NCBI RefSeq assembly: GCF_900156675.1
Contig: NZ_FTOH01000004.1
Coordinates: forward strand, 1-64,000
Direction: 5' to 3'
From: Thalassolituus maritimus
GTDB lineage: Bacteria; Pseudomonadota; Gammaproteobacteria; Pseudomonadales; Oceanobacteraceae
DNA: 64,000 bases
Shown here: positions 7,873-62,481 of the stretch, piece by piece
How positions within the stretch are numbered: the first letter of the stretch is position 1
Layout of the letters: each line of letters starts with the position of its first letter
Notes under the pieces: generated by a model
What the model saw: only the letters and a program-made list of their open reading frames with translations
The model's database searches: none
What the model was told of the DNA's origin: nothing
Translations under genes and position numbers: made by a program

Positions 7873-7885
7873 GGCTGTCCTCTGT

Positions 7886-23141: not shown

Positions 23142-23168
23142 GCCGAAATGAAGGAAAATTTGTAACTT

Positions 23169-23217: not shown

Positions 23218-23225
23218 CCAGGGGT

Positions 23226-24420: not shown

Positions 24421-24421
24421 A

Positions 24422-26481: not shown

Positions 26482-26494
26482 AATACTTCCTGTG

Positions 26495-28804: not shown

Positions 28805-28816
28805 TCAACCGCTCCT

Positions 28817-29593: not shown

Positions 29594-29607
29594 GGCGCTA
29601 CCTTTAA

Positions 29608-29994
29608 TCAGCCTTCGACGCGTTCAAAAATCTTGTCGATTTTTTCTTTAAGTACTGCCGCAGTGAAGGGCTTAACGACGTATCCGTTCACGCCCGCCTG
29701 TGCCGCTGCAACGATCTGATCGCGCTTGGCTTCCGCAGTGACCATCAGAACTGGCAGAGTTTTGAGGCGCTCGTCTTCCCGCACATGCTTGAGAAGATCC
29801 AGGCCTGTCATCCCTGGCATGTTCCAGTCGGTGACCAGAAAATCGAAGTCGCCATTCTGCAGCATCGGCAACGCTGTTGTGCCATCGTCTGCCTCCTGAG
29901 TGTTGGTGAAACCAAGATCACGCAGCAGGTTTTTGACGATACGTCTCATTGTTGAAAAATCATCCACAATGAGAATTTTCATGTTCTTGTCCAA
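29608..29994 (-). CDS. cheY: chemotaxis response regulator CheY (TTG start)
   Basis: Flagellar-switch response regulator, 128 aa. Receiver with [10 protein letters not shown], phospho-acceptor in [10 protein letters not shown] and KPFTA near the C-terminus. TTG 29994 is chosen over ATG 29982 because GGAGG lies five bases before TTG but fifteen or so before ATG, and the resulting start [12 protein letters not shown] matches many annotated relatives. Upstream lie 157 bp after fliA without a clear sigma-28 site. Confidence 0.93.
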
Positions 29995-30151
29995 AACGAC
30001 CTCCAATATACGACTTTTACAAACCAAGCCGGTCCTGAATTAAGTTTAGACCCAGTTAGCGGTTTATCCAGAAAGAGAGAGAAAGAATAGAAAAGAATAA
30101 TGACGGCGTCTGATATGGTCTGAAAGCGCTGGACGCGCCGGTAGGGAAAAA

Positions 30152-41058: not shown

Positions 41059-42435
41059 TTAAGCGAATGTATCCAGTAGGGAATCAGGGGCCGGTGTATG
41101 AGCCTGATTTATGCCGACTACCTCCTCCCCTTCAGCGCCAGATCCGCCAGCAAAACCCGCATTTGAGCCGTCAGAGTTATCAGAAGCACCGCCCCTACCT
41201 TGACCACCACTGTCGGCAGAAACACTGAACTCACTCAACTCAATCCCCTCAGCAGCAAGTGCATCCCGCAGCCGCTGGGCGCTGTTGTCGAGTACATCTT
41301 TCACCTGGTGACTCTGTGCAGACACCTGGACACTGGCTTGATCGTTCTGTACCTGCATACGGATTTCGAGGCTGCCCAACTCAGGAGGGTCAAGCTGAAT
41401 ACGCGCCTGCTGAACATCGTTCGCGACCATAGTCATCAAACGAGCACCTAACGCTGGCGTCCACTCCCTACGGTCCTGCCCAAATTCCAGTCGCTCCCGG
41501 AACTGGCGCTGGAGCTTCTGCTCAAAACCTTCCTCAAAACTGTAGTCTTCTGAGACGAGTTCTTCGGTTGGGCTCTCTGCATTAATCATGTCTGCATTAG
41601 CGGCGGCAGCGGTCGTCGCTGCGGCTGGCTGAGACTGAACCGCTGCAGGCGTTACAGAGGCTTGTGTCATCGATGCCCCTCCCTGACTGTTCAGCATACT
41701 CTCTCTGAAACCGGACGTTTCCAGGCGCGTATCATCGGCAGTGACTGGTTTAAATACGTCACTGACCAGTTCACTCTCGGCTTCTTCTGAAACGGGTTCA
41801 GCGCCATTAGCTGTCGCGGCGGTAAGTTGCGGCTTACCTGAGATTCTCTGATCACTCTGCTGGCGCATCTCGCCAGAGTTCTGGCTGCGTATCGCATTCG
41901 CCATCGGCGAAACAGTCGCGACCGCAAGCGGTGAAGCAGTATCTGTCACACGATCCGAAGGCGTGGCTAGTGTAACGTTAGCCGATGCATCAAGATCAGC
42001 ACCGTCAAAGTCTTCAGCTATATGACCGCCTGACGCCACTTCTGTATCGGCGTAACGCACTGAAATGTCTTTTCCTTTCTGAATCTGAGCCATCAGGGTG
42101 TCGCCCATCAGCTCCTGGCCTGATGTATCAACAGGCTCACCAGTAGAGAGAAGCGAGAGGCTTTCCCCCGACAATGCGGTGTCCTTGTCGCCTGATAAAC
42201 CGAGCGGCAAGTCCAGCGGCAGATTTTGCCCCTCTGAGATTGCCGCCAGGGCCGAAGGTATGCCGCCAGTTTTTTCTGTATCCAGCGGTTGAAGCTGCAT
42301 CTCATCAAGCAAACTTGAAAAGTCACTCAGGCCAGAGGCCCCGTCACCACTGAGCTTCAGGTCCTGAAAGTCGATATTTCCGCCAAGCGACATCAGCAGT
42401 GACGCCATCGGGCTGTTTGGAAGAGAAGGGTTCAT
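41059..42435 (-). CDS. fliK: flagellar hook-length control protein FliK
   Basis: Secreted ruler that measures the hook and triggers the FlhB switch. 458 aa, with a long low-complexity Ser/Ala/Gln/Thr-rich N-terminal part and the conserved C-terminal Flg_hook domain near residues 330-410 (ARIQLDPPELGSLEIRMQVQ, VKDVLDNSAQRLRDALAAEG). The tail is Gly/Ser-rich. It has its own sigma-54-like promoter and follows hptB. Confidence 0.92.
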   Translation of the reverse strand: MNPSLPNSPMASLLMSLGGNIDFQDLKLSGDGASGLSDFSSLLDEMQLQPLDTEKTGGIPSALAAISEGQNLPLDLPLGLSGDKDTALSGESLSLLSTGEPVDTSGQELMGDTLMAQIQKGKDISVRYADTEVASGGHIAEDFDGADLDASANVTLATPSDRVTDTASPLAVATVSPMANAIRSQNSGEMRQQSDQRISGKPQLTAATANGAEPVSEEAESELVSDVFKPVTADDTRLETSGFRESMLNSQGGASMTQASVTPAAVQSQPAAATTAAAANADMINAESPTEELVSEDYSFEEGFEQKLQRQFRERLEFGQDRREWTPALGARLMTMVANDVQQARIQLDPPELGSLEIRMQVQNDQASVQVSAQSHQVKDVLDNSAQRLRDALAAEGIELSEFSVSADSGGQGRGGASDNSDGSNAGFAGGSGAEGEEVVGINQAHTPAPDSLLDTFA

Positions 42436-42470: not shown

Positions 42471-42485
42471 GCAAAAGGTGGGCCA
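42471..42485 (-). promoter_or_regulatory. sigma-54-like promoter of fliK
   Basis: On the minus strand TGGCCC-ACCTT-TTGC differs from the consensus at a single base. It lies 36 bp upstream of the fliK ATG, in the 65-bp gap after hptB, so fliK can be expressed separately from the signalling block. Confidence 0.65.
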
Positions 42486-42500
42486 GTTTTTAATGAAGAG

Positions 42501-42827
42501 CTACAGAAACTCGCTCAATTGTTCGCGAACATGGAGATAGGATTGCTCCAGACGATCAATCGCGCCACCAAGTTGGTTTACAGCACCATCAATCGCCATC
42601 TTTTCTACTGTGTGCGCTTGCTCTGCTAAATCAACCGCGCAGACATTGCTGCTCGCACCCTTAAGACTGTGCACAGTCATCCGGACACTTTCGCAATCCC
42701 CCTCACTCAAAGCCTTTCGCATGTCTGGGAAACGTCGGTCGCTATCGCGGATATACAACTCAATAAGAGGCTGAAACTCCTCCTCCATAATCTCCTTAAG
42801 CATGTTCAGCGACTCAAAATCAATCAT
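42501..42827 (-). CDS. hptB: Hpt phosphotransfer protein, HptB-like
   Basis: Single histidine-phosphotransfer domain, 108 aa, with the phosphorylated His in MTVHSLKGASSNVCA near residue 59. In P. aeruginosa HptB receives phosphate from hybrid kinases and passes it to HsbR; the gene directly upstream here is an HsbR-like protein in the same order. ATG 42827 overlaps the hsbR stop (ATGA). The kinases that feed it are not in the window. Confidence 0.82.
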   Translation of the reverse strand: MIDFESLNMLKEIMEEEFQPLIELYIRDSDRRFPDMRKALSEGDCESVRMTVHSLKGASSNVCAVDLAEQAHTVEKMAIDGAVNQLGGAIDRLEQSYLHVREQLSEFL

Positions 42828-44530
42828 GTCGCCTGCTCCAGTGGCCATTGAATAACTACAGACACCTCGTTACCTTTGCCGCGATACTCAATCGAATCAC
42901 AGATACTTTCAATGAGAGGGATACCTCTGCCTGAGTAATGATTTCCATTAGCTTCCCCTGCATTATGTCGCTTGTAATCAAAGCCATCACCACTGTCTTC
43001 CAGGGTCAGGGTCAGAGTGCCACTATCACCTACTCCGGTATGATGCATATTAATGCGGACGAAGCCTTCCTCAAGTTCAGCCACACGCTTCTCTCTCTGA
43101 CGGTAGTATTCCATAAATCCATCCGGAGATTGTTTCATGGAAGATTGTAGCCCTAACACGCCATGCTCAAAGGCGTTAGAGAATAGCTCAGCAACAACAG
43201 TGTATAACTGCCCGCCAATCGCCCGTAATCCCGGAACCTCCATCATTATATGATTCATCAGCGGCACTGGGTTGAACGACTTTAAGGTCGACGCCTCCAG
43301 TCGGTATTCCATACTCCAGTCTCGTGGTCCCTGAGATATGCCGGCTTTTGTAACACCACTTTCTTTTTCTTCGCGGAGCGCATCAGCCATGACAACTTCA
43401 ATCAGCGTAGTGTCATCATCCTGCTCTGAACCGTCAACAAACTTATCCACGGCGCGCTGTATATCATCATAGACATCGCTGGCATGGGCCGAGTCCCGAA
43501 CAACGTTCAGTAGCCTTTCTTGACCGAACATTTCACCGTCAGAATTCCGTGCCTCTATGATACCGTCTGACCAGAGGAATAAACGATCCCCGTTCGCCAT
43601 TGGAAATTCCGTCATCTGGTCATTGAACTTATCGGCAGACATCACACCAAGAGGCAGATGACGCGAAGACAGTGTCTCGATCATTTCGCCATCGTTACGC
43701 AGCAGGTAGCAGTCCGGAACGCCCCCCATCCAGACGCTGGCGGCCTGACGATCGGGTGCCAGATCTACTGCAGCGGCACAGCAGAAAAAACCGACGGGAA
43801 GAATACTTTTCAATTTCTGATTAATCTCACGAAGTACTTCACGTAAGCCGAAACCCTTTGCCGTCATACCGTAGAAAATATCAGCCATCGGCATTGCACC
43901 AATTGCAGCCGGAAGGCCATGCCCGGTAAAGTCTCCGAGCAGTACATGCATCCCGCCACCGGGCTTACGGGCTGCCAGCAGAACATCGCCATTAAAAACG
44001 GCTAATGGAGACAGTTCGTAACGGATATTCGGGGATGTCAGACAGCCTGCATGAGCGACGTTATCATATACCGCCTTTGCCACTCGTTGCTCCTGCAACA
44101 TATGACGGTTGACCCGAGCAATTTCATCACGCTGATTCAACAGCGTGCGATGCATCTCCGACATGCGGTGGTAAGAGTCAATTTTTGCTTGAAGAACAAC
44201 ATGATTATAGGGTTTGGTGAGGAAATCATCCCCCCCTGATTCGAGACAATCTGCCAGGCTCTGTGCGTCCGAAAGTGATGTCAGAAAGATGACAGGAATG
44301 AAATCTTCTTCGGCTATGGATTTGATCTGGCGGGTGGCCTCCTTTCCGTTGAGGCCGGGCATCATTACGTCCATCAAAACAATATCAGGGCGATGCTCCG
44401 TGAAGATATCTACCGCTTCAAATCCATTTGTTGCTTCTATTACATCGTTTCCCTGGTTGCGGACTACGCGTGATAACACTTTGCGATCAACGCTGTTATC
44501 GTCCGCGATCAGGACCTTATAAGCGGTCAT
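42824..44530 (-). CDS. hsbR: HsbR-like response regulator with PP2C phosphatase and anti-sigma kinase-fold domain
   Basis: A 568-aa fusion: receiver domain (phospho-acceptor in IVLMDVMMPGLNG near residue 52), coiled-coil linker, SpoIIE/PP2C phosphatase (LLGDFTGHGLPAAIGAMPM near 190, LFLWSDGIIEARN near 300), and a C-terminal HATPase_c_2 domain (VAELFSNAFEHGVLGL near 450, GRGIPLIESICD). In Pseudomonas HsbR is both kinase and phosphatase of the STAS protein HsbA, switched by HptB. Its neighbours here are the STAS gene upstream and the Hpt gene downstream, matching that system. Confidence 0.85.
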   Translation of the reverse strand: MTAYKVLIADDNSVDRKVLSRVVRNQGNDVIEATNGFEAVDIFTEHRPDIVLMDVMMPGLNGKEATRQIKSIAEEDFIPVIFLTSLSDAQSLADCLESGGDDFLTKPYNHVVLQAKIDSYHRMSEMHRTLLNQRDEIARVNRHMLQEQRVAKAVYDNVAHAGCLTSPNIRYELSPLAVFNGDVLLAARKPGGGMHVLLGDFTGHGLPAAIGAMPMADIFYGMTAKGFGLREVLREINQKLKSILPVGFFCCAAAVDLAPDRQAASVWMGGVPDCYLLRNDGEMIETLSSRHLPLGVMSADKFNDQMTEFPMANGDRLFLWSDGIIEARNSDGEMFGQERLLNVVRDSAHASDVYDDIQRAVDKFVDGSEQDDDTTLIEVVMADALREEKESGVTKAGISQGPRDWSMEYRLEASTLKSFNPVPLMNHIMMEVPGLRAIGGQLYTVVAELFSNAFEHGVLGLQSSMKQSPDGFMEYYRQREKRVAELEEGFVRINMHHTGVGDSGTLTLTLEDSGDGFDYKRHNAGEANGNHYSGRGIPLIESICDSIEYRGKGNEVSVVIQWPLEQAT

Positions 44531-44539
44531 GATTACCTG

Positions 44540-44842
44540 TTACTGAATAGTGAAAAGTTGCTCAAAGTTAGAAATCGCTAATATCTTACGAACATCGTCA
44601 TTACAGTTCGTAATTGAAATTTCAGAGTGGTCGCCTCCCGCATGATCGCGGAGCAAAAGCAGCATACCCAACGCCGAGCTATCGAGGTAAGTAGCACTGC
44701 CCAGATCAACAATATATTTCCGCACCTTAGATGCACTTTCATAGGCATCGCGAAACTCCTGATGAGCACTGAAATCAAAGCGTCCGTCAACCTGAATGAC
44801 CAATTCCTGGCCGTTACCCGCCAATGTTGCACGTACAGACAT
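44540..44842 (-). CDS. hsbA: STAS anti-sigma factor antagonist, HsbA-like
   Basis: A 100-aa STAS domain with the phosphorylatable serine in YLDSSALGMLLLLRDH near residue 57. In the Pseudomonas system HsbA, when unphosphorylated, binds FlgM and so frees FliA, and when phosphorylated acts on the diguanylate cyclase HsbD. It is encoded 9 bp before hsbR and 59 bp after cheB2. The name rests on domain type and gene order. Confidence 0.8.
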   Translation of the reverse strand: MSVRATLAGNGQELVIQVDGRFDFSAHQEFRDAYESASKVRKYIVDLGSATYLDSSALGMLLLLRDHAGGDHSEISITNCNDDVRKILAISNFEQLFTIQ

Positions 44843-44901
44843 GCGACTATCTCCTGAAATAAATCCCGTACATTAGGTTTAGCACAAGCCACAAGAAGTG
44901 G

Positions 44902-45948
44902 TCATAGCAATCGTGCTTTTTTAATCATTTCTGACGCAATTCCCGTCAAAGGAACAAGTTCATCAACCGCCCCCAGCTCATACGCTGACTTTGGCATCCC
45001 CCAAACCACGGAAGAGGCTTCATCCTGGGCCATGGTCAACGCACCTGCGTCATGAAGCCGCTTCATAGCGACTGCGCCATCCGCGCCCATACCCGTCAGC
45101 ATCACAGCCACCAGGCGCTTCCCCCCAGCAACCTGTAACAGTGAATCAAACATTGCCTCCACTGAAGGTTTATGAAGATTCTGCTTGGGGCCATCGTCGA
45201 CGATGGTAAATAGCTGATCACCTTTCCGCCTGAAGCGCAGATGGCGCCCGCCCTGAGCAATGATCACTCTACCGGGGATCACCTCCAGATCATTTCTCGC
45301 TTCAAGCACTTCCATCGGATAGCGGTTATCAAGGCGTTTTGCCAACGAGGCACTGAAGACTTCAGGAATATGCTGACTGATCACTATTGGTGGGCAGTTA
45401 ACAGGTAGAGTAGAAAGAACCTCTGATATCGCCTCAGTCCCGCCAGTAGAAGATCCGACAGCGATAATACGCCTGTAGTTATCATTGGTCTCACGTGTCA
45501 CAACTCGTGTCGTTTTCTGACTTCTGGTCGTTTCAACAGCAACAACCCGTGCCTGCGATGCAATCCGGACTTTATTACACAGCGCTTCGGCGAAATCGTA
45601 AAAATCATCAGGACTTTGTGCTTTTGGCTTACAGATGTAGTCAACAGCCCCCATCTCCAGCGCCTCCAGCGTTTCAGGCGCACCCTTCTCGGTGAGAGTC
45701 GATACCATCACTACCGGCATTGGTCGAAGACGCATCAGATTGCTGAGAAACTGCAACCCATCCATTCTTGGCATTTCAACGTCGAGCGTAATGACATCCG
45801 GGTTCAACTGTTTAATTTTATCGCGTGCAATCAGTGGGTCGCTGGCCACTCCGACCACATCGATATCCTCAGTACTGTCAAATACTTCACGAAGCATTTT
45901 TCTGATGAGAGCGGAATCATCAATGATCAAGACTTTAATTTTACTCAT
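44902..45948 (-). CDS. cheB: chemotaxis methylesterase CheB (second system)
   Basis: Receiver plus methylesterase, 348 aa: VLIIDDSALIRKML, phospho-acceptor in VITLDVEMPRMDG near residue 56, catalytic GSSTGGTEAI (Ser), ISQHIPEVFS (His) and LTGMGADGAVAM (Asp). It is clearly a different paralogue from the cheB at 25.4-26.5 kb. Last gene of the che2-like set, following cheD by 12 bp. Confidence 0.94.
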   Translation of the reverse strand: MSKIKVLIIDDSALIRKMLREVFDSTEDIDVVGVASDPLIARDKIKQLNPDVITLDVEMPRMDGLQFLSNLMRLRPMPVVMVSTLTEKGAPETLEALEMGAVDYICKPKAQSPDDFYDFAEALCNKVRIASQARVVAVETTRSQKTTRVVTRETNDNYRRIIAVGSSTGGTEAISEVLSTLPVNCPPIVISQHIPEVFSASLAKRLDNRYPMEVLEARNDLEVIPGRVIIAQGGRHLRFRRKGDQLFTIVDDGPKQNLHKPSVEAMFDSLLQVAGGKRLVAVMLTGMGADGAVAMKRLHDAGALTMAQDEASSVVWGMPKSAYELGAVDELVPLTGIASEMIKKARLL

Positions 45949-45960
45949 ACCCGTTCCCCC

Positions 45961-46605
45961 TCAAAAAAGATCAATACCGCTGTCTCCCTGCTCCATGTCT
46001 TCCATTTTAACTTTGCGGCTATATTCCGTTTCACGTTTCATCAATGTATCGTTCTTAACATTCGAGATGCGGCGCATTTTCACCGATCCCGTGTCGGGGA
46101 AATACAGAACCTTACGGGCGTATACATCACCGACATCAGCACTGGCAATTTCGAGCCCTTCGTTATGCAGATAGTTGTATACAAAGAGGATGTTCCGCTG
46201 ACCAATATCACTCATGGAAGCAATCATCTGACCGCCACCAAAGAGCTTCACTTCAAGATTCTGACGGCGACCACCGCGCTTGAGTATTTCGTTGATCAGA
46301 AATTCCATCGCCCACGTACCGTATCGCGAGTTCTGGGTCACTGGGTTAGATCCCCAAACATCACTGGAGTGCTCACTCTGCTCCGGAAGCATAAAGTGAT
46401 TCATTCCGCCGATTCCCAGCTTACGATCACGAATACACGCTGAGACACAAGACCCTAAAACGGTCGCAATCATCTCTCCTTGTGTCGAAACGTATAGTTC
46501 ACCGGGAAGAATTTTGGCGGCCCAGGTGTTGTGAACCCCGTCCCAGTATCGCGCGACATGTTCAAAACCACTGAGAGGTTTCGGTTCGGGTGGGCGCTGA
46601 TGCAT
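45961..46605 (-). CDS. cheD: chemoreceptor glutamine deamidase CheD
   Basis: Deamidates receptor glutamines. 214 aa with the catalytic cysteine in VLGSCVSACIRD near residue 52 and histidine in GGMNHFMLP near 70; the third residue, a Thr/Ser, follows further on. It is longer than many CheD proteins, with N- and C-terminal extensions of 30 residues or so. Only the second system has a CheD, as in the P. aeruginosa che2 cluster. Confidence 0.92.
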   Translation of the reverse strand: MHQRPPEPKPLSGFEHVARYWDGVHNTWAAKILPGELYVSTQGEMIATVLGSCVSACIRDRKLGIGGMNHFMLPEQSEHSSDVWGSNPVTQNSRYGTWAMEFLINEILKRGGRRQNLEVKLFGGGQMIASMSDIGQRNILFVYNYLHNEGLEIASADVGDVYARKVLYFPDTGSVKMRRISNVKNDTLMKRETEYSRKVKMEDMEQGDSGIDLF

Positions 46606-46616
46606 AGGCAGATCCC

Positions 46617-47465
46617 TTAGTAAATTTTCTGGTATATGGTATTACCCAGCGACTTGAAGCGGTCTGTAAGACCGTTCAGTGATTCTGAGTGACCTATGAT
46701 CAGATAGCCCCCTACCGGTAGATAATCAGCATAGCGATTGAACAGGGTTTTCTGAGTTTCTCGATTGAAATAAATCACGACATTACGGCAAAAAATAACG
46801 TCGAATTTGCCTTTCATTGGCCAACCTTCCAGGAGGTTCAGACGTTTAAAATGCACGAGATCACGTATGCTCTTTTTCACGCGAACCTGGTTACCAGTCC
46901 GGTTCTTTTCAAAGAATTTTTCAACAGCATCATCTGGCACAGACATCAGACTGTCTGCAGGGTAGACTCCCTCAGCGCCCGTACTGACGACGTTAGAATC
47001 CAGATCAGTCGCCAGGATTTTCACGTCAAACGCTGAAGCCATATGCGCTTCAGCCAGAGTGAAGGCGATGGTGTACGCCTCTTGTCCGATGGAACAACCA
47101 GAAGACCAGATTCTCACCTTCTTATCTGATTTTTTCTTCAATTCCGGAATGACTGTATCTCTTAAGAAATCAAAGTGATGCGACTCCCGGTAAAAAGACG
47201 TCAGATTGGTTGTAATTAAGTTGATGAAATTAGTCGATTCATCCCGAAAGTTGTCTTTCAGGTACTCCAGATAATCAGCAAAGTTCCGGTATCCCGTCTG
47301 ACGCAGCCTGCGAGCGATACGTCCATACACCATATTCGCCTTATGACGGCCCAGAACGATCCCTGTATGCTTAAGAGCAAGAGCGGCGATTTCGTCAAAA
47401 TCGCGCTCTGTCATTAAAAACTCCTTGTCGGCTAACAGGGGCTTATCAGACACATGTGCGTTCAT
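46617..47465 (-). CDS. cheR: chemoreceptor methyltransferase CheR
   Basis: SAM-dependent methyltransferase of receptor glutamates. 282 aa: N-terminal helical domain (GIVLGRHKANMVYGRIARRL), Rossmann domain with IWSSGCSIGQEAYTIAFTLA near residue 120, DVIFCRNVVIYFN near 230. It may be anchored by the receptor C-terminal pentapeptide, since the receptor gene is directly upstream. This is the only cheR in the window, so it could serve both systems unless another lies elsewhere. Confidence 0.94.
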   Translation of the reverse strand: MNAHVSDKPLLADKEFLMTERDFDEIAALALKHTGIVLGRHKANMVYGRIARRLRQTGYRNFADYLEYLKDNFRDESTNFINLITTNLTSFYRESHHFDFLRDTVIPELKKKSDKKVRIWSSGCSIGQEAYTIAFTLAEAHMASAFDVKILATDLDSNVVSTGAEGVYPADSLMSVPDDAVEKFFEKNRTGNQVRVKKSIRDLVHFKRLNLLEGWPMKGKFDVIFCRNVVIYFNRETQKTLFNRYADYLPVGGYLIIGHSESLNGLTDRFKSLGNTIYQKIY

Positions 47466-47471
47466 ACCTGA

Positions 47472-50219
47472 TCAAAACTCTTCCCAGTCGTCGTCAAAGT
47501 TACTCACCGACAATCCACCCTGGTCGGCAGCTGACGCAGACGGAGCAGGTGCCACCTTTGGAGCAGCAGCTGGAGCAGGTGCTGCCGCAACGGGTGCATC
47601 CATCGACATAGACCCGGAGGCGAAAGATGCATCAACTGTGAAGAATTCCATTAACTGGGTCATTCCCTGAGCCTGGCCCGCCATGGCCTCACCCGCCGCC
47701 GTTGCCTGCTCAACCAGAGCAGCGTTCTGCTGCGTCATTTCATCCATCTGGGCAACCGCGCTGTTCACCTGATCAATACCTGCAGACTGCTCAGCAGCCG
47801 CAGTACTGATTTCCTGGATCATAGCCGATACACGATCAACTGCGCCGATAATTTCATTCAGGGTTTTACCCGATGCATTCACCAGAGACGTCCCTGCTTC
47901 AACCTTATCCACACTGTCGCGGATCAGATCCTTGATCTCTTTCGCAGCACCGGCAGAACGCTGCGCCAGATTTCTTACTTCGCCAGCAACCACCGCGAAG
48001 CCCCGACCCTGTTCTCCCGCTCGCGCGGCCTCAACGGCTGCGTTCAGTGCCAGCAGGTTGGTCTGAAAGGCGATCTCATCAATCACGCCGATAATGTCTG
48101 AGATCTTCTTACTGGCCTGATTAATTTCATCCATCGCAGTGACGGCTTTCTCAACAACTTCGCCACCTTCTTCCGCTTTGTTCTTCGCCGAGCTCGCCAG
48201 CTCGTTGGCATGCACGGAATTTTCGCTGGTCTGTTTCACCGCACTGGTCATTTCTTCCATGCTGGAAGCGGTTTCTTCGAGGCTCGATGCCTGAGACTCT
48301 GTGCGTTTACTCAGATCGGCATTGCCCTGAGCTATTTCGCTGGCGCCCGTAGCAACAGTCGATGCAGACTCACGGATACGGGTCATAATTTCGGTCAGAC
48401 GCTCAACCGTTGAGTTGGCATCCTGCTTGAGCTTACCGAATGAGCCCATATAGTCTGTTTCGATCTTACGTGTCAGATTACCGTGTGCCAGAGCATCGAA
48501 TATGCGTACCGTGTCGTTAACAACATCATCTGCTATTCCGAGCAGGCGATTGAGGCCTTCGGCCAGACTAAGGAAGAAGCCTTGCTTGCCGATAGTATCG
48601 ATTCGACGGGAAAGGTCACCGCCCGCAGCCGCCTCAACAATGGCATCTATTTCACGTTCAGCGCGGACTTCAATCGTGCGATCATTCCACTCAACAACCG
48701 TACCCAACCGTTCGTTGTTGTCGTTAATAATTGGGTTCGCAATTAGCGAGTAGTGGCGACCACCCACTTCAATTTGAGTTTTGTAGGTCTGTGTTAACGC
48801 TGCCAACATGGAGCGCTGGTGCGCTGGGTTCTTATGGAATGTGTCGATATTTTCACCCATCAAAGCCGAGGCATTAAATGCCGGAAGATCTTTGCGCAGA
48901 TCGGCTTCAGAGTCCTTCATCATATTCTCAACGGCTTCGTTCATGTAAATGATATTGCCGTCCGTGTCAGCGATCATAGCGTTCGTACTCACACAGTCGA
49001 GCGCCTGACGCACACGAAGGTTTTCGTTCGCAATGCGCTTTTCTTCTTCACGGGCTTTAAGAATATCGGTCATATCCACCCACTCAACCACGGTACCGAT
49101 GCGGTTACCGTCGGCGTCGTACCATGGTGATGCAGTCAGGTCGAACTTAACGTCATCGAACGACAACTGGGTCTCAATTGGTTTATCAAGTGATTGAAGA
49201 ATACCGCGTTGATGAGAAGGATTTTTATGGAAGACATCGACATTGGTGCCGATCAACTCAGAGACCTTGAAGTTACTCAGATGTTTCTGAATATCCTTTT
49301 CACGTTTTTCAAGTGACTTAATCATTTCATCGTTCATATAAACGATATTCAGATCATTATCCGCCATCATCACGGTTGCCTGACACAACTTCAGTGCACT
49401 GGCGATCTGAGCGTTCTTTTCGTTAACCGTCGCCTTCGCCTTTTGCTCGGTGATATCGGAAGCAAATTTTACCACCTTAACAACGACACCATCGTCATTG
49501 ACGATTGGGTTGTAAGTTGCCTGAATCCACACAGAGCTTCCGTCTTTGGCCACTCGTTCAAACTCGTCCGCACTGAACTCACCCTGGCCCAGCTTCTTCC
49601 AGAATTCTGCGTATTCTGCGCTATTTGCATAGTCTGGCTTCACAAACATACGATGGTGTTTACCCTGGATTTCATTAAGTTGATAACCCAGAGTCTTCAA
49701 GAAATTATCGTTTGCAGTCAGAATTTCACCAGTTGGCGTAAATTCAATAACAGCCTGCGCACGACTGATAGCCTCAACTTTACCGGCAAAGTCGATATTC
49801 CGTCGTTTTTGCTCAGTGATATCGGTAGCATACTTAACGACCTTGATCACTTTGCCTGTTTCGTCAAAGATGGGGTTATACGTCGCCTGTATCCAGATGC
49901 TCTCGCCTGCTTTATTAAAGCGTTCGAACTCAGCGGTCTGAAAATCGCCACGCGCCAGCGAGTTCCAGAAGGCGGCATATTCTGGTGTTTTGGAATATTT
50001 TGGCGATACAAAGATACTGTGGTGCTGACCCTGTATCTCTTCCAGACGATACCCCATCGCATCCAGGAAATTCTGATTCGCTGTGACGATGGTGCCATCT
50101 GGCTTAAATTCAATAGAGGCCTGACTTTTTTCAATAGCTGCCAGCTTCCCTTCCATTTCGCGGATTTTATTGGGGTCGATGGCTGGGCCACCGGAAATGA
50201 TATTGCGGAAAAAGCTCAT
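47472..50219 (-). CDS. soluble methyl-accepting chemotaxis protein with four PAS domains
   Basis: A 915-aa receptor with no membrane helix. PAS1 (about 20-135) and PAS2 (about 140-260) are near copies, both ending in a [12 protein letters not shown]-like segment; PAS3 (about 270-385) and PAS4 (about 400-520) form a second pair sharing FHKNPxHQR. Two HAMP-like segments follow (about 525-620), then the signalling domain with the hairpin tip [20 protein letters not shown]. An Ala/Pro-rich tail ends in DWEEF, a CheR-binding-type pentapeptide. PAS1/2 recall BdlA, the overall plan the soluble Aer2 of Pseudomonas. The ligand is not known; haem or flavin is possible. Confidence 0.92.
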
Positions 50220-50262
50220 AGTTACCTTCCTGTACCTTCTTCAGGCAAATACCTTACGGCAG

Positions 50263-50784
50263 TTAATCTTCGTCAATAGAATAAGGAGTTGCAGCCATAC
50301 CCATGCGTAGCATCAGTAGCTCTTCTACATCGAGCAGAATGACCATCTTCTCGTTTACGTTCACCAGACCTTTAATAAAATCTGAATTATCGTCCTCGGT
50401 CAGCTCCGGAGGACGACGGGTATCATCGTCAGCAATGGTATAAACATCAGATACGGCATCAACGACGATCCCCATCACCCGCTCCCCATTGTCGCTATCA
50501 AACTTTAAGATAATGACAACAGTCGTCGCGGTATAACCGGCCTCTTCAAGGCCAAATCTCAGGCGTAAATCCATGATGGGCACGATGGTGCCGCGAAGAT
50601 TGATCACACCGCGAATGTAGGATGGTGCGTTAGGAATAAGAGTGGGTTCTTCCCAGCCCCGAATCTCCTGTACCGCCAGAATATCAACACCGTACTCTTC
50701 ACCTGACATAATAAAGGTCAGGTATTGCTGCTCGTCACCGATGTCACCTTCCGGCAAAACTATCTCTTTCTTAAGCTCTTCCAT
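50263..50784 (-). CDS. cheW: chemotaxis coupling protein CheW (second system)
   Basis: Single CheW domain, 173 aa: QQYLTFIMSGEEYGVDILAV, GWEEPTLIPNAPSYIRGVIN, RGTIVPIMDLRLRFGLE. A 25-residue middle insertion (DDDTRRPPELTEDD) is slightly longer than usual. ATG 50784 has GAGG six bases upstream; an in-frame ATG at 50796 overlaps the cheA2 stop and is possible. It lies between cheA2 and the receptor gene. Confidence 0.93.
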   Translation of the reverse strand: MEELKKEIVLPEGDIGDEQQYLTFIMSGEEYGVDILAVQEIRGWEEPTLIPNAPSYIRGVINLRGTIVPIMDLRLRFGLEEAGYTATTVVIILKFDSDNGERVMGIVVDAVSDVYTIADDDTRRPPELTEDDNSDFIKGLVNVNEKMVILLDVEELLMLRMGMAATPYSIDED

Positions 50785-50792
50785 CCCGGACC

Positions 50793-52874
50793 TCATGCCG
50801 CTCGTTCTGATCGGTTCTGATTTCGTTTAACAGGGACAATGTTCTTGCCGATACTGGATATGTCGATAATCAAAGCAACAGTGCCATCACCCAGAATTGT
50901 GGCGCCTGAAATGCCAGAGACCTTTTGATAGTTCTGTTCAAGACTCTTGATCACAACTTGTTGTTGCCCCAGAAGATCATCAACAACAATACCGATTTTT
51001 TCGTTATCGCCTTCCACGACCACCAGCATCATTTCGTCAACGACGTCTTTTTCATCACGCAGTCCAAAAATCTTATCCAGGCGGACAATAGGTATATATT
51101 CGTCGCGCAGCTGCATAACATACTGGCTACCCGTGACATGGTTCAGTGATGAGCGATGAATCTGAATTGATTCGACGATGGATACCAGTGGGAATATATA
51201 GGTCTCTTCACATACTTTGACGAGCTGACCATCCAGAATTGCAAGCGTCAGTGGCAGGCGAATGATGAAGGTCGAACCCACATTGCGCTGAGACTTCACT
51301 TCAATACTTCCGTTGAGCGCCTGGATATTACGACGTACCACATCCATACCCACACCACGACCTGATATATCGCTTACTGCTTCCGCCGTCGAGAAACCCG
51401 GCAAGAAAATCAGATTGTGGATTTCTTCCGGTGTCAGACTGTTATTCTCGGGAACCAGCCCTTTTTCTATGGCTTTTTTAAGAATTCGATCTTCGTTCAG
51501 ACCGGCACCATCATCAGCAACTTCGATAACGATATTTCCACCCTGATGATAGGCATTGAGGGTGATGGTGCCCTCTTCACATTTACCGGCTGCTATACGT
51601 TGTTCTGTGGTTTCAAGTCCGTGGTCCATGGAGTTACGTACGAGGTGAACCAGAGGATCATTGATTTTTTCCATGACCGTTTTGTCGAGTTCGGTCTGCT
51701 CACCGATAGTTTCAAGGACAACCTTTTTGCCGAGCTGACCACCCAGATCACGTACCAGGCGAGGGAAGCGACTGAAAGCAAAACTGATTGGCATCATGCG
51801 TATCTTCATAACGCTTTCCTGCAACTCGCGGGTGTTTTGCTCGAGCTGCGAAAGACCTTCCTGTAATTTCGCCAGTCGACTCAGGTCAAAGTCCTGACCA
51901 AGCTGGCCCAACATCGACTGAGTAATGACCAACTCACCAACCATATTAATCAGGCTGTCCACCTTATCGATTGACACCCTGATAGAGGAACTCTCTGCGG
52001 CTTTCTTTGGCGCTTTTGCAGGCTTGGCGCTCTTCTGCGCCTCAGCGATCACAGGCGCTTTTTCAGTTGCAACCTCGGGTGTCTCCTGAGGTTGCTGCTC
52101 TTCAGCGGCATTCTTATCAGGTGTTACGTTATTATCTGAGGTTGTTTCTGCATCACCCGTTAACGGCAAATAGGTCAGGTCGCACTCGTCCTCAACCCAC
52201 TCAAAAATCGCTTTAATCTCATCGAGTGGCACTGAAGTAGTGACTTTGATCTGCCAGTTGATGATGCATTCTTCTGGCGTCAGACTGCTCAGTTCCGGGA
52301 CATTATCGATATCGGCGGTAACATCAAAGTTGTCTTCACCAACCAACTCGCGCAGTTCACGGAACATCCTGAACGGCTCATTCCCCGTCATGAGCAGGTC
52401 GGTATGTGGATGTACATCAATTAACCAGCCACTGTCTTTTCCGTCAGAATCCGCGGAGGTCTCTTCTGCAGCAGCACTCTCCTGCTCCATTCCAAGAATC
52501 TTCTCGAATTCTTTGCGTAACTCTGCAGGGCGTTCTGTCTCTGGATCGTTTCCATCCTGCATATCTGAAAGCATGCCACGTAAACAGTCGACGGACTGCA
52601 AAAACAGGTCGACATAGCGGGGCTCCATCGAGCGCTTTCCGGAGCGTATTTCGTCAAGTAAGGTTTCGAGAACGTGAGTGAACTCGGACACTGGCATAAA
52701 ACCGAATGTGCCGGCACCACCTTTAATGGAATGAGCAGCGCGGAAGATATTATTGACGGTCTCGTCATCAACATCGGCGGGGTCCATGTCCAGCAGTTCA
52801 CTTTCCATAACGTCCAGGCCTTCGAAACTTTCTTCGAAAAATACCTGATGAAATTGCGACAGATCGACACTCAT
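50793..52874 (-). CDS. cheA: chemotaxis histidine kinase CheA (second system)
   Basis: A 693-aa CheA. P1 with His48 in RAAHSIKGGAGTFG, a P2-like domain (about residues 150-240, WLIDVHPHTDLLMTGNEPFR), a Pro/Ala/Lys linker, dimerisation domain (KVDSLINMVGELVITQSMLG), ATPase (LVRNSMDHGLETTEQ, GRGVGMDVVRRN) and CheW-like domain. It differs from the first CheA by its ordinary linker and clear P2. Probably phosphorylates CheY2 and CheB2. Confidence 0.95.
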   Translation of the reverse strand: MSVDLSQFHQVFFEESFEGLDVMESELLDMDPADVDDETVNNIFRAAHSIKGGAGTFGFMPVSEFTHVLETLLDEIRSGKRSMEPRYVDLFLQSVDCLRGMLSDMQDGNDPETERPAELRKEFEKILGMEQESAAAEETSADSDGKDSGWLIDVHPHTDLLMTGNEPFRMFRELRELVGEDNFDVTADIDNVPELSSLTPEECIINWQIKVTTSVPLDEIKAIFEWVEDECDLTYLPLTGDAETTSDNNVTPDKNAAEEQQPQETPEVATEKAPVIAEAQKSAKPAKAPKKAAESSSIRVSIDKVDSLINMVGELVITQSMLGQLGQDFDLSRLAKLQEGLSQLEQNTRELQESVMKIRMMPISFAFSRFPRLVRDLGGQLGKKVVLETIGEQTELDKTVMEKINDPLVHLVRNSMDHGLETTEQRIAAGKCEEGTITLNAYHQGGNIVIEVADDGAGLNEDRILKKAIEKGLVPENNSLTPEEIHNLIFLPGFSTAEAVSDISGRGVGMDVVRRNIQALNGSIEVKSQRNVGSTFIIRLPLTLAILDGQLVKVCEETYIFPLVSIVESIQIHRSSLNHVTGSQYVMQLRDEYIPIVRLDKIFGLRDEKDVVDEMMLVVVEGDNEKIGIVVDDLLGQQQVVIKSLEQNYQKVSGISGATILGDGTVALIIDISSIGKNIVPVKRNQNRSERAA

Positions 52875-52878
52875 GTGC

Positions 52879-53241
52879 TTACCCCAGAACGCGCTTGATC
52901 GTACTCAGCAATTGATCCGGATTAAACGGCTTAACGATCCAGCCAGTAGCACCTGCCTGTTTACCCTGCATCTTCATATCACCTGCCGATTCGGTGGTTA
53001 ACATAAGCATCGGGGTAAACTTATAGTTGTCGAGTTGACGGAGATTCTTCACCAACTCAATGCCATTCATGTTTGGCATATTTACGTCAGTCAGCACCAG
53101 GTCAAAGCTCTCAGTTTTAGCGATTTCTAGCGCCTCCACACCGTCAGTCGCTTCGCGTACGTCAAAGCCCGCACCTTTCAGTGTGAAACTCACCATCTGA
53201 CGCATGGATGCCGAATCATCGACCGCTAAAATACTCGTCAT
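52879..53241 (-). CDS. cheY: CheY-like response regulator (second system)
   Basis: A single receiver domain, 120 aa, with AVDDSASMRQMVSFTLK, phospho-acceptor in LVLTDVNMPNMNG near residue 53, and GWIVKPFNPDQLL. It lies 4 bp before cheA2. Relatives in this gene position often do not bind the flagellar switch but act as phosphate sinks or on other outputs; which applies here is open. Confidence 0.92.
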   Translation of the reverse strand: MTSILAVDDSASMRQMVSFTLKGAGFDVREATDGVEALEIAKTESFDLVLTDVNMPNMNGIELVKNLRQLDNYKFTPMLMLTTESAGDMKMQGKQAGATGWIVKPFNPDQLLSTIKRVLG

Positions 53242-53270
53242 AGGAGTACTCCCTCTTAGTAAACGAATAA

Positions 53271-53552
53271 TTAATCTGGCAGGTTTATCGCCTGCTTGAG
53301 GCCAAGGTAGCCCGTTATCTCCCGGATATTGTCAGAGACCGCATGCCATTGAATGCTGTTTCCCGTAGTTTCCAGCGTTTTCCGGAGACTGATCAGAAGC
53401 TGGTAACCCGCAGTGTCCGAGTACTGCACTTCACTGCCATCAAGAACAACATCCCCGCCCGCCTGAACAGCAGTTTCAAGCTTCTCCAGGAGCGCTTCAG
53501 CCTGATCAATGCTCAGACGATTACCGCAGTTAACTGGGCTGGTGTCGGTCAT
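53271..53552 (-). CDS. STAS-domain protein heading the second chemotaxis set
   Basis: A 93-aa STAS-like protein with the acceptor region VQYSDTAGYQLLISLRKTL, where the usual Ser is replaced by a Thr in DTAG. It lies 29 bp before cheY2 and is a different protein from the HsbA-like one. STAS proteins at the head of such chemotaxis clusters occur in other gammaproteobacteria, but their role is unclear. Whether HsbR also acts on it is open. Confidence 0.75.
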   Translation of the reverse strand: MTDTSPVNCGNRLSIDQAEALLEKLETAVQAGGDVVLDGSEVQYSDTAGYQLLISLRKTLETTGNSIQWHAVSDNIREITGYLGLKQAINLPD

Positions 53553-53563
53553 GGTTTTATTCC

Positions 53564-53579
53564 GGTCATGGACATGACC
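53564..53579. promoter_or_regulatory. palindrome GGTCATG-GA-CATGACC before STAS-cheY2
   Basis: Perfect 7-bp arms with a 2-bp centre lie 12 bp upstream of the STAS start codon, in the 129-bp gap after fliJ. It could be an operator or a small mRNA hairpin at the border between the flagellar genes and the inserted block. No confident promoter was found beside it. Confidence 0.35.
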
Positions 53580-53681
53580 TTAAGATTAGTAGGCAATCTG
53601 TGAGCTGCCACACAATGTGTAGTTTTTTTTATAGATCAATGAATGAAGGTATGAAAGTCAGGAAATATGCGATTTGGATGA

Positions 53682-54122
53682 TCAGCGACGGCGGTTTGCC
53701 CACTCGTCCGCTTCACGCTGCTCAGCACGACTGATAGACAGCTTATGTTCTTCTTCGAGCTTATCGATCATGCTTTCCATCGCATCGGCTTTATGATGAA
53801 CCTCTAAATAGGCATCGCGCGCACGCTGACTGAGTGCCTCAAGTTCCTTGAGTTGGTTGTCCTGCTGCGCCAGAGCAGTTTCTATCTGACCAATAAATTC
53901 GAGAGAGTTGTGTATTTGTCCGGCAGCAACACTCTGGTCGGCGGGGCTGGTAATCTGGCGCCGATATTCCTGAGCGTACGTGTCCAGCTGCGTTCGTTTG
54001 TCTTTTTCGGCGGTCAGACGCTGCTCAATATCGCCCCAGCGCTGCAGCGCTTCTTTTTCTTCTCTTCGCTTAAGGTTAAGAACAACGGCCAATCGTTTGG
54101 AGCGAGGGTGCTGGTAGGTCAC
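53682..54122 (-). CDS. fliJ: flagellar export chaperone/stalk protein FliJ
   Basis: Coiled-coil stalk of the flagellar ATPase complex that links FliI to FlhA. 146 aa, almost wholly helical with heptad patterns ([20 protein letters not shown] and [19 protein letters not shown]). GTG start overlapping the fliI stop (GTGA). The sequence is weakly conserved but length and place are right. Confidence 0.9.
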
Positions 54123-59309: not shown

Positions 59310-59720
59310 TTATACAGGCATGTTCATAATGTCTTTATAGGCCTCAACAAGTTTATTACGAACCTGTGTCATCGCCTGAAAAGAAACGCTGGATTTCTGC
59401 AGAGCAATCATGACCTCCGGAAGGTCAATCGAAGGGTCGCCCTGCTCAAACCGTGTCGCCAGTTGCGCTGCGGTCTGTTGATTTTCGTTTACGTTATCGA
59501 TGGCATTTTTAAACATCGACTGAAAATCAGGAATCGTATTATCGCCACTGATTTCATTAACGCTGGATGCTTGCTCGGCTTGCTTTGAGATCCGTGCAAC
59601 GGCGTCCATTTCAGTATTTGGTCGCACTCCCTGGCTGGCCATTTCATTCTGCGAACGCAACTGATCTTTTACCTGTCGCATCTGCATCAGAACTGAACTT
59701 ACATCAACACGATCAACCAT
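59310..59720 (-). CDS. fliE: flagellar hook-basal body protein FliE
   Basis: Joins the MS ring to the rod. 136 aa; the C-terminal part is typical ([40 protein letters not shown] and [18 protein letters not shown]). The N-terminus is about 25 residues longer than in E. coli. First gene of the fliEFGHIJ run, behind a sigma-54 site. Confidence 0.95.
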
Positions 59721-61224: not shown

Positions 61225-62424
61225 TTAACCGCGTGCGAGCGGTAGGTACATTTCTGCAGACACCCCACCCAGTGGGCTGTCGGTTAATCTGAAATCACCG
61301 TGATGAGCACGAACAACCGCCTGCACAACAGCAAGGCCAAGCCCGGTACCGTTGCTTTTCGTCGTGAAGAAAGGCTCCATCATGCGATTTTTCTTGTCAT
61401 CGGGAAGGCCCGGACCGTTGTCCATGACGGCGATACACAGCCTGCCATGCTCGTCACGGCGGGCGACTAATTTGATCTCGATAGGATGCTCACAGGACTC
61501 AAGGGCGTTGTTAATCAGGTTCATTACGGCGCTGATTAAAGAGTCCCGATTACACATAAGGGAAGCTTCCCCTACTTGATTCTCAAGCGTGCAGACAGCG
61601 CCGCTCTGGGCGACAGCAACCTCCATCGCCGAAGCAATACCATCCAACAGGGACGTCACTTTCACATCATCGTTTAATGGCGCCTCGCCACGGGCAAAAA
61701 TCAACATATCGCGCACCTGGCTTTCCAGGTGATGAAGTCGCTCCTGCAACTTACCGGCAAAGCGAATACGATGTTCTTCAGCGAGATCTTCGGAATTAAG
61801 ATGACCCGCGTAGAGTGTCGCCGCAGCCAGCGGTGTACGAATCTGATGCGCCAGAGACGCAACCATTTTTCCCATGGCGGACAAGCGCTCGTGCTGAGCC
61901 AGTTGGGACTGCAACGCGCGGGTTTCAGTCAGATCAGTTAAAAGAATCAGCTGCCCACGCTCATTGGTCATGGCTGCGGTGCGCAGACTGACACGACGAC
62001 CATCCACCAGTGAAATCTCATGACCATCATCACGGCGCGGTTTGAAACAACGCTTAATCACGTTGCGCCAGCGCTGGCCAAGCAAGGTGCCAGCACCCGA
62101 AGCCGCTAATAAAAGGTCTTCGGCGGCTGGGTTACTCTGAATAATGACGCCATTTTCATCCAGCAGCAGAACACCTGCAGGTAACATCTGCAGCAGGCTT
62201 TCCAGACGATCGGCCAGGCGTTCTTTTTCGCCCAGCTCCTGCATCCTTTGAGCAGATACTGTCGCCAGCTCACCACTGAGTTGCTCGACCTTATTTTCAA
62301 GAAAGGCGTAGGAGTCTGTCAGCTGCTGCGACATTTCATTGAACATGTTAAATGCGCGCTTTAGCTCGCTGGGGTCCAGCGGCTGCTGATCGTCAGGAAC
62401 TGAACTTAATGCCACACTCGCCAT
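61225..62424 (-). CDS. fleS: flagellar sensor kinase FleS
   Basis: Cytoplasmic kinase for FleR, 399 aa with no membrane helix: N-terminal coiled coil, PAS domain (GVLLLDENGVIIQSNPAAED near residue 90), HisKA with VASLAHQIRTPLAAATLY carrying the phosphorylated His near 200, and HATPase with LINNALESCEHP and GTGLGLAVVQAVVRAH. ATG 62424 has GAGG five bases upstream. It follows a consensus sigma-54 promoter. Confidence 0.93.
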   Translation of the reverse strand: MASVALSSVPDDQQPLDPSELKRAFNMFNEMSQQLTDSYAFLENKVEQLSGELATVSAQRMQELGEKERLADRLESLLQMLPAGVLLLDENGVIIQSNPAAEDLLLAASGAGTLLGQRWRNVIKRCFKPRRDDGHEISLVDGRRVSLRTAAMTNERGQLILLTDLTETRALQSQLAQHERLSAMGKMVASLAHQIRTPLAAATLYAGHLNSEDLAEEHRIRFAGKLQERLHHLESQVRDMLIFARGEAPLNDDVKVTSLLDGIASAMEVAVAQSGAVCTLENQVGEASLMCNRDSLISAVMNLINNALESCEHPIEIKLVARRDEHGRLCIAVMDNGPGLPDDKKNRMMEPFFTTKSNGTGLGLAVVQAVVRAHHGDFRLTDSPLGGVSAEMYLPLARG

Positions 62425-62481
62425 AAATACCTCACCAGAACACCACATTTGCGGCGGAAAAATGTCACTAGTAGGTATTGG

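Follow-up and report, generated by a model that had tools for sequence, protein, structure and literature searches.

An F7-type chemotaxis set joined to an HsbA-HsbR-HptB partner switch between fliJ and fliK of Thalassolituus maritimus: organization, probable ancestry and proposed role

Introduction

What does a second set of chemotaxis genes do inside a flagellar gene cluster, beside an anti-sigma partner switch, and how did it come to lie there? The question is raised by a block of genes found between fliJ and fliK of Thalassolituus maritimus (genome of 3.86 Mb in 30 contigs), in the first 64,000 nucleotides of contig NZ_FTOH01000004.1, a stretch which is called here, at its full length, the window. 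On balance, we lean towards the view that the block is an F7-type chemotaxis operon near the stage 1 form, fused to the HsbA-HsbR-HptB switch and placed between two flagellar units; that its array, built on a heme-PAS receptor, drives an RpoS/FliA switch; and that this nest of genes is ancestral. Published work is cited by PubMed Central (PMC) number.

Organization of the block

All the named genes of the block are uninterrupted open reading frames (ORFs) on the minus strand with concordant Pfam domains, and from 54122 down to 41059 they follow the order fliJ, STAS1, cheY2, cheA2, cheW2, receptor, cheR, cheD, cheB2, hsbA, hsbR, hptB and fliK. The two flanking genes are fliJ (53682..54122; PF02050, 61.2 bits), the last of an upstream unit fliE-F-G-H-I-J that extends from 59720 down to 53682, and fliK (41059..42435; PF02120, 87.6 bits), the first of the downstream flagellar unit. 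Family assignments were checked for fliF, G, H and I upstream and for fliL, M and N downstream; the likely fliE at 59310-59720 is assigned by reading alone.

The block opens with STAS1 (53271..53552), an anti-sigma-antagonist-like protein (PF13466, 56.9 bits) in which a threonine (DTAG) aligns with the usual phosphorylation site. The response regulator CheY2 (52879..53241; Response_reg) is followed by the kinase CheA2 (50793..52874), which has Hpt, H-kinase_dim, HATPase_c and CheW domains and is called F7-type by gene order and kinship, not by the published classifier. CheW2 (50263..50796), an Aer2-like receptor (47472..50219), CheR (46617..47465), CheD (45961..46605) and CheB2 (44902..45948) come next, the four Che proteins being assigned by Pfam. 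The partner switch consists of HsbA (44540..44842), a second STAS protein (STAS2) of HsbA type with the motif YLDSSALG; HsbR (42824..44530), a partner-switch regulator with REC, SpoIIE/PP2C and HATPase_c_2 domains; and HptB (42501..42848; PF01627, 47.9 bits), an Hpt protein of HptB type. Candidate phospho-acceptors are present in the sequences of HsbA, HptB and STAS1.

The widest gaps are those at the two borders, 129 bp between fliJ and STAS1 and 65 bp between hptB and fliK. Within the block they measure 29 bp (STAS1-cheY2), 4 bp (cheY2-cheA2), 43 bp (cheW2-receptor), 6 bp (receptor-cheR), 11 bp (cheR-cheD), 12 bp (cheD-cheB2), 59 bp (cheB2-hsbA) and 9 bp (hsbA-hsbR), and cheA2 overlaps cheW2 as hsbR overlaps hptB. 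The first-pass annotation of this DNA had described the same gene order on the flagellar strand, with gaps mostly under 60 bp, and had seen in it a merger of a chemotaxis set with an Hsb switch in the fliJ-fliK interval; ORFs and Pfam bear out all three points, the only gaps above 60 bp being those at the borders.

Distribution in related genomes

The arrangement is shared by many relatives. HsbR neighbourhoods were fetched from 35 genomes searched as relatives, T. maritimus included, and in 18 of them upstream fli genes, STAS1, che genes, hsbA, hsbR, hptB and downstream fli genes lie on one contig (the window, L039-L049, L051-L053 and L055-L057; fliJ of L055 and L056 is visible only with profiles). 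Among genomes of the same family, 17 of 22 carry the nest in the same fliJ-fliK interval. Because relatives keep the gene order, the arrangement is no chance effect. One further genome (G009) has che-hsb-fliK with fliF-G-H inverted upstream, and in another (G032) the genes are split over contigs. Four (G007, G011, G026 and G033) have hsbA-hsbR between fli genes and fliK without che genes; in the che-less locus of G033 hptB was not detected. With the CheA2 query, no match in G007, G011, G015 or G026 rose above the level of F6- and Chp/Pil-type CheA. The che-less locus of G011 (L054) contains, on the minus strand at 6080-7657, a lone receptor ORF of the methyl-accepting chemotaxis protein (MCP) type between fliJ and hsbA.

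In the 244 genomes of the order, CheA was found in 64 (E<=1e-140) and HsbR in 102 (E<=1e-120). Hsb-type HsbR lies within 10 kb of CheA in 23 of the 64 CheA genomes, and one more (G439) has a CrsR-type protein there, these lists having been read by eye. The 31 CheA-centred loci fetched from the order (L216-L246) comprise 13 placed directly after fliI/fliJ, one (L226) between fliN and fliG, 10 with no flagellar gene in view and seven resembling E. coli-type sets; among the 13, the far side is outside the view in L222-L224, L230 and L234, the last being a variant. Named loci, among 80 retained of at least 523 relatives, extend the full arrangement to Oleispira, Reinekea and Salinibius, and the che-hsb arrangement with its 5' flagellar side beyond the locus to Bermanella, Oleiphilus and Marinagarivorans; the Hsb trio alone is found in Marinobacter, Gilvimarinus, Marinimicrobium, Natronospirillum and several Pseudomonas.

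It follows from this synteny comparison that the merger, which had been put forward as a novelty, is common in related genera; its flagellar address is shared by several families. Part of it is also in print: the stage 1 F7 cluster, as published, joins two anti-sigma antagonists and a serine phosphatase to a che set (PMC7184735), and for Pseudomonas species other than P. aeruginosa an Hsb trio near fliK, which the same annotation had mentioned for P. putida, is likewise documented (PMC5085249). Among the papers listed from the open-licence PMC literature, judged by title and opening of the abstract, no description of a che set at a flagellar address was found, and a term search of the main text of PMC7184735 gave neither fliK nor flagellar operon. 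The presence of hptB with absence of mcpA and the history of the nest were likewise not encountered in that literature. The combination of F7 set and Hsb switch is a variant that is widespread and probably old, and no unique merger.

Receptor, partner switch and proposed mechanism

The receptor (915 aa) has PAS stretches, a HAMP domain and an MCPsignal domain. Three of its four PAS stretches pass Pfam; the remaining one, third in order (279-384), does so only weakly (PF13596) but matches the solved chain 6ceq. For the fourth the matches are 3vol and 4hi4, both solved chains of Aer2; the Aer2 PAS motif FHKNP(A/S)HQ is kept. We take these three structures to be heme PAS domains of P. aeruginosa and V. 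cholerae Aer2, and the receptor may accordingly sense O2 or redox state. Its C-terminus, DDDWEEF, fits the pattern x-[HFYW]-xx-[HFYW] of a CheR-type tether. Such a pentapeptide ends all 33 receptor ORFs in 32 full loci, where lengths reach 1265 aa and the shortest ORF (245 aa, L059) stands at the end of the available sequence. As predicted from these proteins, the receptor family is one of fixed output and interchangeable sensor.

The output arm can be modelled on P. aeruginosa. There, phosphorylation of HsbR by way of HptB is reported to make HsbR remove the phosphate from HsbA. In its unphosphorylated state HsbA binds FlgM, so that FliA becomes free, and RpoS is held by HsbR; once phosphorylated, HsbA binds to HsbR and RpoS is released (PMC6482189). 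The T. maritimus genome contains fliA (30152-30877 in the window) and genes for FlgM (C25:145787) and RpoS (C11:126738). In the mechanism that we propose, the receptor would sense O2 or redox state and build with CheA2 and CheW2 an array adapted by CheR, CheD and CheB2, and the array would act on the partner switch, not on the motor. HsbR would be set by HptB, and perhaps also by CheA2, and would itself set the phosphorylation of HsbA and with it the allocation of RpoS, which HsbR holds, and of FliA, which FlgM holds, as in P. aeruginosa. The array would add a second input, oxygen or redox, to the switch by way of CheA2 and either the HsbR receiver or STAS1, a step that we infer.

The distribution of hptB bears on how the switch is set. 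In a table of hsbR contexts (162 rows, near-copies included, after removal of HsbR matches below 480 bits and of ORFs shorter than 480 aa), hptB follows hsbR in 34 of 36 full loci, in all nine che loci with only the 3' flagellar side seen and in the three relic rows; the same holds for 35 of 39 che-less flagellar loci (plus one of one with a longer gap). The figures are 10 of 48 for unknown contexts and four of 26 for che loci without a flagellar gene in view. Therefore, HptB goes with the flagellar address and with Hsb-type HsbR, not with che.

Several observations weigh against the proposed mechanism. HsbR has its own input, since hptB accompanies it with and without che; F7-type sets without adjacent hsbR are also found in flagellar operons (L210, L211, L212 and L226); seven of 39 full loci have no receptor before cheR; and no direct sign of communication between CheA2 and HsbR was found in this analysis. 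The alternative is that the two systems are neighbours without wiring, the F7 array acting through CheY2 on some other target, HsbA-HsbR-HptB being run by hybrid kinases through HptB alone, and the address being shared for historical reasons. Apart from the constancy of the hsbR-hptB pair, it would account for the persistence of Hsb without che in many lineages and for the conservation of CheY2, whose mean p-distance (0.254) is the lowest among the eleven proteins compared (FliI and HsbA, 0.333), as if it had an important partner of its own. However, published stage 1 and stage 2 F7 clusters repeatedly contain the antagonist and the serine phosphatase along with their che genes (PMC7184735), and in Shewanella CrsA/CrsR goes together with Che1 (PMC9855816), so that the association recurs in many lineages, unlike what drift would give. 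We regard unwired neighbours as a possible explanation, though not the one that we would expect.

Promoter-like signals at the borders

The gap before STAS1 contains a promoter-like element (53580..53611, minus strand), GTGGCA-17 nt-TAATCT then TAA, which includes the sigma-S-like extended -10 ACTAATCTTAA at 53590-53580. Relatives with little other similarity retain before STAS1 a stretch of the type TTAGCAGCTT...GTCTAATCTTAA. Directly downstream of the putative -10 lies the inverted repeat GGTCATgtccATGACC (53564..53579, minus strand; GGTCAT-GTCC-ATGACC), whose arms GGTCA/TGACC are kept in the three nearest relatives and which is a possible operator or leader hairpin.

For scoring, the sigma-S -10 consensus was set at KCTAYRCTTAA, the form given for E. 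coli, and the best site per 150 bp upstream was compared with dinucleotide shuffles, near-copies being dropped before the border and receptor counts (L039, L040, L068, L069, L072, L074, L150, L241 and L250; six of them for the core CTANWCTTA at STAS1). Upstream of STAS1 in 32 full loci the mean was 8.50 (shuffles 7.77; z 6.2), with at least 9/11 in 14 of 32 (shuffle mean 4.4, max 8). For hsbA of 39 che-less loci the corresponding mean was 8.46 (shuffles 7.48; z 11.8), with at least 9/11 in 20 of 39 (shuffle mean 2.6, max 5). The value upstream of hsbA in 38 full loci (z 5.0; 14/38, shuffle mean 5.2, max 12) points to a possible second, internal sigma-S-like element in these loci. No comparable rise was seen in the controls upstream of cheA2, cheR, hsbR and fliM, or with the reversed or complemented consensus everywhere (z -3.7 to 2.0).

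A post-hoc core, CTANWCTTA, matches at 7/8 or better before STAS1 in 28 of 33 loci (shuffle mean 5.2, max 11), having been derived from the same sequences, and occurs upstream of hsbA in 12 of 40 che-less loci (mono-shuffle 4.0) and in 19 of 44 full loci (7.2); the sigma-S claim rests on KCTAYRCTTAA and not on this core. Its other sites in the window are only 30049, just upstream of the F6 cheY, and 22080, downstream of the F6 cheW, both on the minus strand, with none on the plus strand.

These results have to be set against the fact that the window's own site scores only 8/11 to the sigma-S consensus, that the z values are inflated by the relatedness of the loci, that the control stretches, unlike the border gaps, are mostly coding, and that 17 F7 loci with STAS1 and without a flagellar gene in view gave no sigma-S-like enrichment (z 0.9).

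Other readings of the borders were tried and set aside. The sequence TGGCAG...TTGCC before STAS1 has, by eye, the wrong GG-GC spacing for sigma-54. The CRP-like TGTGTGGCAGCTCACA reaches 8-9/10 only in the window and its three nearest relatives; scores in the next nine loci were 5-7, so that it is genus-specific at best. For sigma-28, the -10 alone gave z 3.0 before STAS1, with control genes equal or higher (3.0, 3.8, 2.4 and 4.9), and nothing above shuffles at the hptB-fliK border (z 1.4 and 0.9). Sigma-70 elements numbered 10, with 13.5 in shuffles; the sigma-70 extended -10 gave z -3.2 before STAS1, and in che-less loci the value before hsbA was 2.4 and that of the fliM control 2.3.

At the 3' border a sigma-54 core, TGGCCCACCTTTTGC (42471..42485, minus strand), of the form TGGC-N8-TGC, lies between hptB and fliK. 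Of 37 full loci, 29 have the core at this border (shuffle mean 1.2, max 3), as do 33 of 35 che-less loci (shuffle mean 1.5, max 6); after hsbA it was found in 0 of 38 and 1 of 39, and after cheB2 in 1 of 39. On the whole minus strand of the window it occurs 14 times, and besides the copy at 42485 it stands just before three genes of the flagellar region: a sensor kinase gene at 61225-62448 (core at 62496), the likely fliE (core at 59816) and fliL (core at 40859). The block therefore seems to sit between two sigma-54-headed flagellar units, with a start signal of its own.

The first-pass annotation had supposed that receptor, switch and export genes are expressed together. In its full form this would mean that a single flagellar transcript yields export proteins, receptor array and anti-sigma switch and ties sensing to the timing of flagellar assembly; the common strand, the short gaps and the position inside the flagellar cluster agree with it, and read-through is possible, no terminator-like site being listed on the block strand in the two border gaps. 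Co-expression is nevertheless disfavoured, because conserved promoter-like signals, sigma-S-like at the head of the block and sigma-54 before fliK, mark both borders across the order, and we consider a single transcript improbable. By sequence, then, the block is predicted to have borders of its own, which covers half of the refuting condition set by that annotation. Under the mechanism preferred here, a sigma-S-type promoter would serve the block alone, and transcription of fliK would start afresh at a sigma-54 promoter; RpoS reading the block promoter would close a feedback loop. In P. aeruginosa the cluster II che genes are cited as induced in stationary phase, and RpoS has a role for cheB2 (PMC2714965), which fits a start of sigma-S type.

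Evolutionary history of the nest

How the block reached its place was examined in a FastTree phylogeny of HsbR (154 rows). Nearly all flagellar HsbR of the order that are linked to HptB, whether or not che is present, fall in a group of 71 rows (support 99), which includes four rows lacking a flagellar gene in view; the window HsbR belongs to this group, as do the fliJ-fliK HsbR of Pseudomonas and Marinobacter. Branches outside this group are long, and the flagellar rows found there are L062, L114, L139, L154, L170, L173 and L208. Four genomes (G021, G010, G018 and G027) have a second HsbR copy (L063-L066) that is 34-37 % identical to the window HsbR, lies outside the 71-row group and has no che kinase or flagellar gene detected nearby.

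For topology tests, rows above 690 bits with hptB or a flagellar side were retained (93 of 162), and removal of 80 % duplicates and unknown contexts left 70 of the 93. On this tree the label 'full che' needs 12 changes, seven of them forced by starred branches, and a single clade for the 35 full versus the 32 che-less rows was rejected by the approximately unbiased (AU) test (log-likelihood 719.8 worse, p 0.000187). Family f199 shows all three states among nearest kin, with L235 as a full locus, L249 as a che-less locus and L247 as a relic; the genome of L249 has another F7 set elsewhere (L229). Of the che genes, the relic L247 keeps cheY2 and cheD alone in its fliJ-hsbA interval, accompanied by a 322-aa ORF that has no Pfam match; a second relic, L102, retains only cheR.

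In a CheA tree of part of the loci, the F7 CheA from fliJ-fliK loci of the order all fall, except that of L212, on the same side of a 99 % branch; of the 31 rows there, 30 are at flagellar loci and one comes from a contig too short for its setting to be seen. The opposite side holds L212 and 17 rows of the class, including the flagellar L154, L170 and L208. Pairwise distances over 27 loci (four near-copy rows dropped; L098 and L241, from the same organism, both kept) correlate at 0.83 for CheA2-FliI, 0.85 for CheB2-FliI, 0.88 for CheA2-HsbR, 0.92 for CheB2-HsbR and 0.51 for hptB-FliI; the block genes are read as having a common history with FliI and HsbR.

Since che-bearing loci are scattered among che-less ones in the HsbR tree, and two relics are known, the F7+Hsb nest is probably ancestral in the order, inherited with the flagellar operon and lost piecemeal many times, and the Hsb trio of Pseudomonas and Marinobacter is probably a remnant of the nest after loss of che. 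Two caveats apply: the polarity from ancestral to lost relies on parsimony and the two relics, as an unrooted tree alone cannot prove direction, and the lone cheR could be a separate gain. The reverse history, in which the Hsb trio was first in fliJ-fliK and F7 sets were inserted beside it several times, draws on the same inability of an unrooted tree to separate gain from loss, and on the fact that fliJ-fliK also received another F7-type set (L212) and that one stands between fliN and fliG in L226. However, the che-bearing Hsb loci inspected have the same order and orientation, with STAS1 first and cheB2 beside hsbA, and the one-sided placement of their CheA and the relics with partial che speak for loss as well; repeated insertion is accordingly judged unlikely.

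Starting from an ancestral nest, a further proposal can be made, rather tentatively: the HptB-HsbR-HsbA switch, which in Pseudomonas decides between motile and sessile life, may be an output arm left orphaned by an ancestral F7 operon for oxygen sensing that had its place within the flagellar gene cluster, and where the operon is intact, as in T. maritimus, Aer2-CheA2 may still write to HsbR or STAS1, so that a single cytoplasmic array would divide RNA polymerase between RpoS and FliA, with RpoS transcribing the array. If true, this would supply the missing output of the ancestral F7 systems; the function of stage 1 and stage 2 F7 systems has been described as unclear (PMC7184735).

CheY2 and motor control

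The best solved matches of CheY2 are 4hnr and 4h60, which we take to be V. cholerae CheY4. In pull-downs CheY4 does not bind FliM (PMC3774744), and at the FliM-contact residues of V. cholerae CheY3 (K94, R95, Y109 and K122) CheY2 has A, G, W and T, much as CheY4 does (compared with Table 3 of that paper), the Trp and Thr corresponding to W101 and T114 of CheY4. The window also contains, at 22571-30039, a second che set with cheW, cheB, cheA, cheZ and cheY (family checked), of motor (F6) kind by content and not by classifier, whose CheY retains the CheY3 FliM-contact residues. As CheY2 is CheY4-like and the F6 CheY CheY3-like at these positions, motor control by the block is unlikely.

Data on T. 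oleivorans MIL-1 touch this question. On the n-C28 alkane an MCP (TOL_2508) rose 2-fold, a CheA (TOL_2510) 4-fold and a CheW (TOL_2481) 2.5-fold, and the authors read this as chemotaxis (PMC6304351). If genes are counted from the F6 cheW, taken as TOL_2481, in the order of the window, the numbers reached for the block receptor and CheA2 differ by at most one from TOL_2508 and TOL_2510, and cheW2 lies between the two; this inferred mapping suggests that the two are block proteins, that the block is made more on long-chain alkane and that the published reading as motor chemotaxis merits re-examination. The parallel rise of an F6 protein, CheW, supports the authors' reading and counts against ours. 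Even so, that the block is a second motor-control set, whose CheA2-CheY2 switches the motor alongside the F6 set, is very improbable despite its flagellar address and this alkane response, given a complement of cheA, cheZ and CheY3-like CheY already in the window and a CheY2 with Trp/Thr in place of Tyr109/Lys122.

Some loci depart from the common arrangement. L210 (G030) is a reduced nest in which STAS1-cheY2-cheA2 alone was detected between fliI and fliL-fliM, and L211 (G025) has an F7 set with hsbA before fliK, hsbR not being detected. L226 (G467) reads fliM-fliN-cheA-cheW-MCP-STAS-cheR-cheD-cheB-fliG, with an F6-type cheY and cheZ on the opposite strand upstream. In L212 (G029; 4881-11013, minus strand) an F6-type CheY and CheZ, then an F7-type CheA, CheW, STAS, CheD and CheB lie between fliJ and fliK; L234 (G451, same family f9) is alike after fliJ, its contig ending before fliK. 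No receptor or hsb was seen in either locus. An F6-type CheA was not evident in G029 with either CheA query, the window F6 CheA giving the L212 kinase as top match (298.7 bits), ahead of a 2155-aa frame and of a 794-aa frame at 30 %; G451, a contaminated sister of G029, has one further CheA candidate of 663 aa. It looks as if in L212 and L234 an F7 kinase had taken over motor outputs inside the flagellar operon.

Comparison with known systems

The flagellar-operon loci tie an F7 array to a partner switch whose targets are known in P. aeruginosa (RpoS and FlgM/FliA), in culturable marine bacteria, and their promoter-like borders make predictions at bench level. The nest offers an origin for the Pseudomonas Hsb switch, and the alkane-induced 'chemotaxis' proteins of T. 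oleivorans may belong to a stress or lifestyle array, not to motor control.

Che2 (cluster II) of P. aeruginosa reportedly lies away from flagellar genes and from hsb. It shares with the window the cheY2-cheA2-cheW2-aer2-cheR2-cheD-cheB2 core (gene order in part after PMC7184735) and the pentapeptide tether, and differs in being stage 2. The HsbA-HsbR-HptB system of Pseudomonas has the same genes, STAS, REC-PP2C-HATPase and Hpt, and in non-aeruginosa species the same fliK neighbourhood (PMC5085249, PMC6482189), whereas the window has a whole F7 set between fliJ and hsbA. In Shewanella oneidensis CrsA-CrsR, of which CrsR holds RpoS, a partner switch likewise stands beside an Aer2-type F7 set, Che1; differently from the window, Che1 carries McpA and has no hptB among the ten genes listed, and the introduction and discussion of that paper make no mention of a flagellar address (PMC9855816).

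The closest likeness is to the stage 1 F7 clusters of V. cholerae and M. alcaliphilum, whose published order is anti-sigma antagonist, cheY, cheA, two cheW, aer2, cheR, cheD, cheB, mcpA, anti-sigma antagonist and serine phosphatase (PMC7184735). The 5' antagonist, the cheY-cheA-cheW-aer2-cheR-cheD-cheB order, the 3' antagonist with its serine phosphatase, and an F6 set elsewhere in the genome are all common to these clusters and the window. The T. maritimus block, however, has one cheW instead of two and no mcpA in the 59 bp between cheB2 and hsbA, and it adds hptB, has an HsbR from the HptB-linked group and lies in the fliJ-fliK interval.

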